A stretch of 34,433 bases of DNA from Verrucomicrobiota bacterium (GTDB lineage: Bacteria > Verrucomicrobiota > Verrucomicrobiia > Limisphaerales > SIBE01). The position numbers and the translations under genes are program-made. How positions within the stretch are numbered: position 1 is the first letter of the stretch; each line of letters starts with the position of its first letter. Shown in pieces: positions 12,527-17,171 of the stretch. Under the pieces are notes generated by a model, which saw only the letters and a program-made list of their open reading frames with translations, was not told the DNA's origin and searched no databases. The stretch is taken from NCBI GenBank assembly GCA_016871535.1, contig VHCZ01000041.1:1-34433 (forward strand), in the 5' to 3' direction.

Positions 12527-12640
12527 AGGCAGCGCGCGCGATTGAATCAGAGTTGACGCGTCAGGCAAAGGGAGATTACTTCGCTGCCAGCCGACTTCGC
12601 AGCGGATTTAGGAATCTGAATCCAGTTGCTCACGCTCGCC
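12527..12640. promoter_or_regulatory. Divergent intergenic region, presumed bidirectional promoter
   Basis: This 114-bp gap separates two divergently transcribed secreted-protein genes, so promoters for both must lie in or near it. I do not see clear -35/-10 boxes or an operator palindrome. The call rests on gene arrangement only. Confidence 0.4.
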
Positions 12641-14050
12641 ATGAAACTCAAGTTTTGCCTCGTCGTTCTCACCCTACTCCAAGCTCACGGGGTTTCCGCA
12701 GCGGTCGCCTGGCCGCAATTCCGCGGGCCAAATTGCTCAGGCGTTTCTGAATCCGACAAACCGCCCGTCGTCTTTGGGCCGGCCACGAATCTGCTTTGGA
12801 AAACCGCAGTGCCGCCAGGCTGGTCTTCGCCCTGCGTTTGGAACGACCGGATTTTTCTCACTGCTTTCGAGAACGGCAAACTCATGACGGTCGGCCTTCG
12901 CCGAAGCGACGGGAAGAAGCTCTGGGAACAGGCGGCCCCGGCGGAGAAGATCGAAGAGATCAATCCCGTCAGCAGTCCCGCTTCGGCCACCCCCGCGACC
13001 GATGGCCGGCGCGTCTATGTTTATTTTGGCTCCTACGGTCTGCTCGCTTATGACTTCGCGGGACGCGAACAGTGGCGGAAGCCGCTGCCGCTCGTCACGC
13101 TTTCGAATGGGAGTGGCACCTCGCCCGCGTTGATCCAGGGACGATTGGTCATCAATCGCGATCAAGAGCATGGAAAATCCTCTCTGCTCGCCGTGAATCC
13201 GCGCAATGGCCGGACCGTTTGGGAAACGCCACGCCCCGACTTCGCCAGCAGTTATGCGACGCCCATCTTGTGGAAACATGGCCAGGACGAAGAGATCGTG
13301 GTCGCGGGCAGCGTTCGGGTCGTGGGCTATGGCATCAAGGACGGCCAGGAACGGTGGTGGACCGGCGGCCTGGAAGCCGTGAGCGTGTGCCCAACGCCGA
13401 TCATTGGCGATGGCCAGCTTTTCGCGGCATCCCGCAGTTTCGGCGGCAACAACATGCCGCCGTTCCCGCAAATGCTCGCGGACATGGATCCCAACGGCGA
13501 CCGCAAGATCGCGCGCGCGGAAGGGAAGGGCTTGCTCGGCAACAAGGCCATCTTCGACGCAACAGACACCGACCACGACGACATCGTGACCGAGCAGGAG
13601 TGGAATGCCGCCCTGGCGTTCATCGCCAAAGGCGATCATGGGATTTTCGCCGTGCGTGCCCCGGGGAGCGGTGACTTGACGGACTCTCATGTCGTTTGGA
13701 AACAGAAGCGGGGCATCGCGACAGTTCCTTCCCCATTGTTCTTCCGTGGGCGGATTTACGCGGTCCAGGACGGTGGCCGCGTGACGTGTTTCGAGGCCAA
13801 GACCGGGAGAATCCTCTTCGAACAAGAACGCCTCGGCGCCGACGGTGAATACTACGCTTCCCCCATCTGCGCGGATGGAAAAATCTATTTCGCCTCCACG
13901 CGCGGCACCGTGAGCGTCATGAAAGCCAGCGACACGTTACAGGTGCTTGCCCGAAACGATCTGGGCGAACGCCTCATGGCCACGCCTGCCATCGCCGACC
14001 ACAAACTCTACGTGCGGACCGCGAACCATCTCTGGGCCTTCGGGAAGTGA
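12641..14050 (+). CDS. Secreted PQQ-like beta-propeller protein with embedded EF-hands
   Basis: An outer-membrane-assembly/PQQ-dehydrogenase-like propeller of about 469 aa. I chose the ATG at 12641, which gives a clean signal peptide (M-K-L-K-F-C-L-V-V-L-T-L-L) followed by W-P-Q-F-R-G-P-N, the standard opening of this verrucomicrobial/planctomycetal family. Blades carry the usual A-x-(D/N)-x-x-(T/N)-G-x-x-x-W/F pattern (N-P-R-N-G-R-T-V-W-E; E-A-K-T-G-R-I-L-F-E). Between two blades, at about 13481-13620, two EF-hand-like loops are inserted (D-P-N-G-D-R-K-I and D-T-D-H-D-D-I-V-T-E-Q-E), suggesting calcium binding. There is no quinone-dehydrogenase catalytic motif, so enzymatic activity is not claimed. 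A truncated relative of the same family lies at 17530-18645. Confidence 0.85.
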   Translation: MKLKFCLVVLTLLQAHGVSAAVAWPQFRGPNCSGVSESDKPPVVFGPATNLLWKTAVPPGWSSPCVWNDRIFLTAFENGKLMTVGLRRSDGKKLWEQAAPAEKIEEINPVSSPASATPATDGRRVYVYFGSYGLLAYDFAGREQWRKPLPLVTLSNGSGTSPALIQGRLVINRDQEHGKSSLLAVNPRNGRTVWETPRPDFASSYATPILWKHGQDEEIVVAGSVRVVGYGIKDGQERWWTGGLEAVSVCPTPIIGDGQLFAASRSFGGNNMPPFPQMLADMDPNGDRKIARAEGKGLLGNKAIFDATDTDHDDIVTEQEWNAALAFIAKGDHGIFAVRAPGSGDLTDSHVVWKQKRGIATVPSPLFFRGRIYAVQDGGRVTCFEAKTGRILFEQERLGADGEYYASPICADGKIYFASTRGTVSVMKASDTLQVLARNDLGERLMATPAIADHKLYVRTANHLWAFGK

Positions 14051-16148: not shown

Positions 16149-17171
16149 ATGGAATTGGCCCCTGCTCTGGTCCGTGCGCTCGTGCTGCTGGCACTGCCTT
16201 GTCTCAGCCTGGTATCCCCTCTCCTGGCGCAGCTGCAGGATTCCTGGGAGCGATTGCGCGGTTTCGACGCCAACAAGGACGGCAAAATTTCGCGCGACGA
16301 ATTTCCCGGTCAACCACGCGGGTTCCAACGCATGGACGCCAACGCCGACGGTTTTATCACGCGGGAGGAAGCCGGCGCTCTCCGCGGGCGTTTGGGTCCC
16401 GGCCCAGGAGGGAACTTTGGCCCGCCAGCCGGAGGCATGGGCCTATTGATGCAACTCGATGCCAATGGGGATGGAAAGATTTCCCAGAAGGAATGGTCCG
16501 AGTTTTTCGAGAAAGCGGATGAGAACGGCGACGAAATCCTGCAACCGGAAGAATGGCAGGCCGCCACGAACCGCGAACGCCTCAACGATCCTGCGCCCGC
16601 TGTGGGCGCCAAAGCTCCTCAAGTCAAAGCCAAACCTCTCGGGAGCCGGCGCGAGACCGACTTGTCGACGCCAGAGCGGACCACGGTGCTGATTTTCGGC
16701 TCGCACACCTGAGGCCCGTTTGTCCAGCAGGCCGTGCGCTTGCAAGAGGTCTATGACTGCTTCAAAGACCGCGCGGATTTCTACTGGATTTACGTCCGCG
16801 AGGCACATCCCTCGGATGGTTTCCGACCCGCACGGCACGTGAGCATTGAGCAGCCGACGACTTTCGGTCGGCGGACGCAAGTGGCCAGCACTTGTTCCGC
16901 GGATTTGAAACTCACGATCCCGGTTTTGGTCGATGACATGGAGGACACGGTGGCCAAGGCTTACAATGCGTTGCCCGATCGCCTCTTCATCCTGAATTCG
17001 GAGGGGACCATCGCGTATCGCGGCGACCGCGGCCCGCGCGGATTCAAAGTGGATGAGATGGAACAGGCACTGGCCAAACTTGTGCCCGCATCTTCCGTGG
17101 CCCAGAGCAGCGCCTCGAAGGGTAACAAGAATCCGCGCAGCACTCGCCGGCCACCGAAGCTCCGGCGTTAG
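16149..17171 (+). CDS. EF-hand / iodothyronine-deiodinase-like selenoprotein (TGA 16710-16712 read as selenocysteine)
   Basis: Two open frames (16149-16712 and 16734-17171) are in the same phase and joined by a single TGA. Read through as selenocysteine, they give one 340-aa protein. Residues 1-27 are a signal peptide. Four EF-hand loops start at D40, D63, D104 and D124 (pattern D-x-N-x-D-G-x-I-x-x-x-E, the last less regular). From about residue 178 a deiodinase/thioredoxin-fold domain reads V-L-I-F-G-S-H-T-U188-G-P-F, followed by Y-V-R-E-A-H-P-S-D-G-F and a cis-Pro region L-T-I-P-V-L-V-D. Animal deiodinases carry F-G-S-x-T-U-P and E-A-H-x-S-D-G-W at the same relative positions. A candidate bacterial SECIS follows the TGA. 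The likely role is a periplasmic, calcium-responsive redox or reductive-dehalogenation enzyme; the substrate is unknown. The alternative is a nonsense-mutated Cys/Sec homologue, which I consider unlikely. No sel genes are in the window. Confidence 0.85.
16727..16743 (+). promoter_or_regulatory. Candidate bacterial SECIS hairpin
   Basis: Six base pairs, GCAGGC with GCUUGC (one G-U), close a five-base loop CGUGC with G as the second loop base. The loop begins 21 nt after the TGA at 16710-16712. Known bacterial SECIS elements lie in the coding sequence about 16-37 nt after the UGA, with a short apical loop carrying a G in its first two positions, so the geometry fits. Structure was judged by eye only. 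Confidence 0.6.

Follow-up and report, generated by a model that had tools for sequence, protein, structure and literature searches.

Here we describe a gene that, with a probability of about 95%, encodes a bacterial selenoprotein with selenocysteine (Sec) at residue 188, a conclusion drawn from sequence comparison that we regard as close to settled. The gene occupies positions 16149..17171 on the forward strand of the window, the 34,433-nucleotide stretch of Verrucomicrobiota DNA that was analysed. Its in-frame UGA is located at the catalytic site of a deiodinase-like domain whose homologues have Cys or Sec at this position, and the host has SelA, SelB, SelD and tRNA-Sec. Taken as a whole, it is quite probable that the product is one exported Sec188 redox protein, in which EF-hands would bind Ca2+ and Cys249 would resolve the oxidised Sec.

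The gene runs from the ATG at 16149 to the TAG at 17169-17171 and comprises 340 codons plus TAG, an extent that agrees with orthologues of the same layout. The sole in-frame interruption is the TGA at 16710..16712 (forward strand), codon 188, which is predicted to encode Sec because homologues in the order have TGA at the same codon in every locus extracted and others have Cys. The read-through product has 340 residues and contains the motif FGSHT-U188-GPF, followed by EAHPSDGF (E218-F225). A preliminary description of this DNA had reported two frames in the same phase, separated only by this TGA and carrying FGSHT, GPF and EAHPSDGF, and the sequence reads as claimed. It had also anticipated that automatic annotation would split the gene, and plain ORF calling indeed yields two ORFs, 16149-16712 (187 amino acids) and 16734-17171 (145 amino acids, with a GTG start). 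TGA is the normal stop of six neighbouring genes within the window, which rules out a general reassignment of the codon. A comparison with plasmid records gave no DNA match.

Homologues of the protein were searched in 320 genomes of the order to which the window belongs. This gave 19 deiodinase matches in 17 genomes, each with exactly one internal stop, which is TGA every time, and in every locus extracted from these 17 genomes it is located at the codon of FGSxT-U-[GP]PF. In the wider phylum, three more loci (L032, L034 and L035) are interrupted by TGA at this codon. Because GTDB contigs were scanned with a Cys codon pattern, only Cys forms could be returned; the scan gave 22 homologues with Cys at the column of residue 188, mostly from Planctomycetota and Verrucomicrobiota. 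Cys forms that align at this column also come from Acidobacteriota and others, so that homologues of both kinds, which the preliminary description had suggested looking for, were found. In a maximum-likelihood tree the Sec and Cys forms interleave, with four changes, and a Sec form (L062) and a Cys form (L041) are sisters with a support of 98/88. The window protein clusters with the EF-hand Sec proteins in this tree with a support of 90/58, which is not firm. Across the 120 codons 3' of the TGA, dN/dS between close orthologues is 0.03-0.10; these codons are under strong purifying selection.

In the host genome, selA (468 bits) and selB (323.5 bits) are adjoining on contig C102. The tRNA-Sec scores 68.6 bits and has the anticodon tca according to ARAGORN, and selD (370 bits) has its own in-frame TGA at the active site (SSCAGUASK). 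All four components that the preliminary description had named for a search of the genome, selA, selB, selC (tRNA-Sec) and selD, are thus present. Among the genomes compared, selB is above the cut-off in 20 of the 21 that have Sec forms (the exception is a genome of 50% completeness) and is missing from both that have Cys forms, a contrast that rests on two genomes since just two with Cys forms were compared; it is also present in 15 of the 20 genomes that have no clear homologue of full length. The host has a second UGA gene, an AhpD-like gene (L002:130-1143, G000:C127, minus strand) whose CYYU (CxxU) motif contains an in-frame TGA; its reading frame continues into the C-terminal half of a deiodinase-like domain that has no FGSxTU of its own. 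In the relatives G006, G007 and G004, the AhpD part is present and the deiodinase-like fusion is absent; the fused gene would be a chimera of recent origin or a product of assembly.

Two other readings of the TGA were weighed against Sec. It could result from a nonsense mutation or a sequencing error, the protein being an ordinary Cys form, or could separate two distinct genes, as both halves are open ORFs and the genome is a draft. However, 17 genomes of the order have TGA-interrupted homologues, the TGA lying at one and the same codon in every locus extracted, and L032, L034, L035 and L030 have TGA too, while TAA or TAG never occurs. The purifying selection 3' of the TGA and the full Sec machinery likewise argue against this reading, which is scarcely credible; a nonsense mutation or sequencing error is ruled out by the same-codon TGA in many genomes together with the downstream selection. 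The PF00837 match described below, the EF-hand matches and the TGA orthologues show that a single gene, and not a chance arrangement, extends across the TGA. A full protein without selenium would result if the UGA were read through non-specifically or as another amino acid, and the weak SECIS evidence for the window gene alone would agree with this. Such decoding is very unlikely, because Cys occupies the catalytic position in homologues, although the Cys scan itself required Cys, and because selB accompanies the TGA forms and is absent from both Cys-form genomes, an observation that is independent of the Cys scan. That TGA is a normal stop in the neighbouring genes also speaks against it. The assignment of the TGA to Sec188, proposed in the preliminary description, is strongly supported by the TGA homologues of the 17 genomes, the Cys homologues, the Sec machinery and the downstream purifying selection.

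A candidate bacterial SECIS hairpin, GCAGGC-CGUGC-GCUUGC, is located at 16727..16743 (forward strand). In the window and in the EF-hand orthologues it has 6 base pairs and a 5-nt loop with G at loop position 2, and starts 14 nt past the UGA. One pair shows a compensatory change on both sides, being C-G in the window and in L035 and G-C or G-U in orthologues, and 88.9% of the hairpin cells pair, against 36-60% in slid versions. Compared with synonymous recodings, hairpins are somewhat stronger in Sec forms, with a mean z of -0.92, and less so in Cys forms, with -0.22 (Mann-Whitney p 0.0099, with relatedness ignored). For the window gene alone, 29 of 100 synonymous recodings are as good as the native hairpin, which is not significant, and a search of the region with the Rfam SECIS families found nothing up to E 10. 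For these two reasons the hairpin is a candidate only, and its role as a SECIS element is plausible.

The predicted protein can be described as composed of an export signal, an EF-hand region and a Sec domain. Residues 1-28, MELAPALVRALVLLALPCLSLVSPLLAQ (16149..16232, forward strand), form a hydrophobic, signal-peptide-like N-terminus by direct reading of the sequence, and the orthologues likewise start with hydrophobic stretches that end in AQ; both agree with the signal peptide of the preliminary description, and the protein is probably exported. The region 16257..16559 (forward strand) encodes four EF-hand loops, DANKDGKISRDE, DANADGFITREE, DANGDGKISQKE and DENGDEILQPEE. As previously suggested, there are four of them; they are canonical, and the Pfam models EF-hand_5 (61.1 bits, E 4.5e-17) and EF-hand_1 (57.4 bits, E 5.1e-16, four stretches) are both above cut-off, so that the loops are predicted to bind Ca2+. 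The thioredoxin-fold deiodinase-like domain comprises about residues 149-309 (16593..17075, forward strand). The search of the read-through sequence against PF00837 (T4_deiodinase) that had been advised gave 99 bits and E 3.5e-28, the gathering cut-off being 27 bits, and the match crosses the TGA.

The EF-hand and Sec deiodinase layout was found in the genome of the window and in at least 11 further genomes, all of one family within the same order, and the complete layout of signal peptide, EF-hands and Sec domain is common to at least 12 genomes of the order. Cys forms with EF-hands are found as well, in Planctomycetota (L040, L043 and, by eye, L044) and in Verrucomicrobiales (L051, L059), some of these EF-hand scores being below the Pfam cut-offs. 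In a genome of the same family as that of the window, locus L030:211-1812 (G002:C439) has a divergent Sec domain (FGCLTU-PPF) at the N-terminus and four EF-hand loops at the C-terminus, which is the reverse of the domain order in the window protein. Since the Sec forms, the Cys forms and the reversed L030 all carry both parts, the pairing of EF-hands with a deiodinase domain is recurrent. Within the window, a PQQ-like beta-propeller protein encoded at 12626-14050 also has EF-hand-like loops (MDPNGDRKIARAEG and DTDHDDIVTEQEW).

The AlphaFold model of the protein has a mean pLDDT of 80.6, with values above 90 across most of the deiodinase core and low values in parts of the EF-hand region. Its best structural matches are mouse DIO3 (4tr3, Z 20.6) and DIO2 (9h48, Z 20.5), the next being at 16.5, and phmmer comparisons with solved deiodinase structures gave 6.5e-18 and 1e-13. 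The deiodinase-like fold of the preliminary description is thus consistent with both the PF00837 match and the model. Peroxiredoxins and ResA-type thioredoxins (AhpE, Bcp, ResA) share the thioredoxin fold and rank behind with Z of about 15-16.5, clearly below DIO3 and DIO2; moreover, EAHPSDG is a deiodinase feature. All 42 homologues have the active-site residues T, P, F, Y, H and R, while S and E are found in 41 of them. The proton relay of deiodinases consists of six residues, Ser, Thr, Tyr, Glu, His and His (PMC11592359), of which five are present here as S185, T187, Y215, E218 and H220, while His219 of DIO3 aligns with Pro236. The window protein therefore shares with vertebrate DIO1-3 the fold, FGSxTU-PF, EAHPSDG and five of the six relay residues, and has R294 at the place of Arg275 of DIO3. 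It differs from them in the Pro that replaces a relay His, in the missing proximal Cys and in the place of its candidate resolving Cys; moreover, DIO1-3 are membrane-anchored, whereas the window protein is predicted to be exported and has EF-hands.

The proximal Cys, two residues before Sec (Cys124 in DIO1, Cys168 in DIO3), forms a selenenyl-sulfide in DIO1 (PMC9141512). His186 occupies this site in the window protein, and the candidate resolving residue for Sec188 is Cys249 (16893..16895, forward strand), conserved in homologues and located in the helix after the EAHP loop. Of the 31 homologues that lack the proximal Cys, 29 have the helix Cys, and none of the 11 that have the proximal Cys does, so that the two are mutually exclusive among the 42 homologues: 11 have only the first, 29 only the second, and 2 neither. 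The Fisher test gives p 1.8e-8, which is inflated by relatedness and is no proof, since the tree needs only about two changes of the proximal Cys. With two changes underlying it, the pattern is a lead, by which each homologue apparently retains a single Cys to pair with residue 188.

In the mechanism that we propose from these comparisons, SelB and tRNA-Sec would decode the UGA at 16710-16712 as Sec188, aided by the hairpin just downstream. The N-terminal EF-hands of the exported protein would, judging by their loops, bind Ca2+, probably for folding, stability or attachment, and the C-terminal domain would act like a peroxiredoxin or a deiodinase. The Sec188 selenolate, backed by S185, T187, Y215, E218 and H220, would attack an oxidised small molecule or protein, most likely a peroxide or a disulfide. 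The oxidised Sec188 would then be resolved by Cys249 as a selenenyl-sulfide, which a thiol partner would reduce. A thiol/selenol redox function outside the cytoplasm is the outcome we moderately favour, and the odds of a Sec188-Cys249 couple are about even. The conserved auxiliary Cys249 fits a peroxiredoxin-like role, and such redox chemistry is likelier than the calcium-tuned dehalogenation raised in the preliminary description, for which no specific support emerged. In the gene neighbourhood, no neighbour common to the window and the other Sec-form loci points to a partner or a substrate.

Ca2+ may be structural or regulatory in this protein. Secreted EF-hands are commonly structural, which counts against a switch in which Ca2+ binding would toggle the redox domain on and off; in addition, nothing in the comparisons points to coupling, the model is of low confidence in parts of the EF-hand region, and many deiodinase-like relatives have no EF-hands. 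A switch of this kind, by analogy with the one proposed for SELENON in the ER, is doubtful, even with SELENON as a known parallel (PMC10650576), the EF-hands and the Sec domain kept together in at least 12 genomes and the same pair, in reversed order, in L030. The selenoprotein could also be an extracytoplasmic reductive dehalogenase of iodinated or brominated aromatics, like the vertebrate deiodinases, as DIO3 and DIO2 are its nearest solved structures and S185, T187, Y215, E218, H220 and R294 match residues of the DIO relay and substrate clamp (PMC11592359). We consider this unlikely: besides the change of the relay His219 of DIO3 to Pro236, the loop Trp207 is replaced by Phe225 and the proximal Cys168 by His186, no dehalogenation genes were recognised nearby, and thyroid hormones are not expected in such bacteria according to an earlier study (PMC1088965). 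The chance is very small that the protein is a calcium-gated exported selenoenzyme for the reductive dehalogenation of natural aromatics that carry iodine or bromine; if it were, it would correspond, in free-living organisms, to the thyroid-hormone deiodinases and would have its own Ca2+ switch.

Bacterial Sec and Cys deiodinase-like proteins were described in a 2005 study of the Sargasso Sea (Zhang et al., PMC1088965), excerpts of which suggest a redox role, place Sec at the deiodinase active site of these PF00837 proteins and contain no mention of EF-hands. Reviews give the motif of bacterial deiodinase-like selenoproteins as UxxC (PMC13188914, PMC9312934), which is absent here, the window protein having U188-G-P-F191. 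The NCBIfam model NF038285, 'deiodinase family protein' (deiodinase_rel), has 347 positions and covers both the EF-hand region and the deiodinase domain. The Cys form L040, from Planctomycetales, matches it over 4-346 with 461 bits, whereas the window protein scores 217.1 bits, below the curated cut-off of 250 bits. SELENON (SEPN1) also combines EF-hands with a thioredoxin-fold Sec domain outside the cytosol (PMC10650576); however, its Sec domain is of another family, and the likeness is an analogy only. Thus, of the earlier claim of a new selenoprotein, the selenoprotein stands and the novelty of the family does not, given the Sec proteins of 2005 and the Cys-form NF038285. No paper on a bacterial EF-hand deiodinase selenoprotein was found in the open-access literature, subscription papers being outside the search; the enzyme family is known, and its selenium-plus-calcium version is little described.

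A group of Verrucomicrobiota has a conserved EF-hand and Sec-deiodinase protein, which routine annotation is likely to split or miss. The deiodinase fold occurs in bacteria in many Sec and Cys versions that are apparently soluble and exported, some of them closely related, so that comparisons among them could show directly what exchanging Sec for Cys does, where the resolving Cys lies and whether calcium has an effect. These proteins also bear on the origin of the animal deiodinases. Some loci of relatives have other arrangements. In a genome of the same genus as that of the window, L026:1449-1629 (G007:C173) has a signal-peptide-like start joined out of frame to about 35 C-terminal residues of the deiodinase-like protein, and looks like a remnant from an internal deletion. 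The Sec-form gene of L035 (G248:C2) has an apparent frame shift about 65 codons past the TGA, with two matches in different frames, which is perhaps a sequencing error. Finally, two Sec deiodinase-like genes adjoin in tandem at L063 (G575:C109), and contig C130 of that genome carries a third copy, which bears EF-hands (L100).
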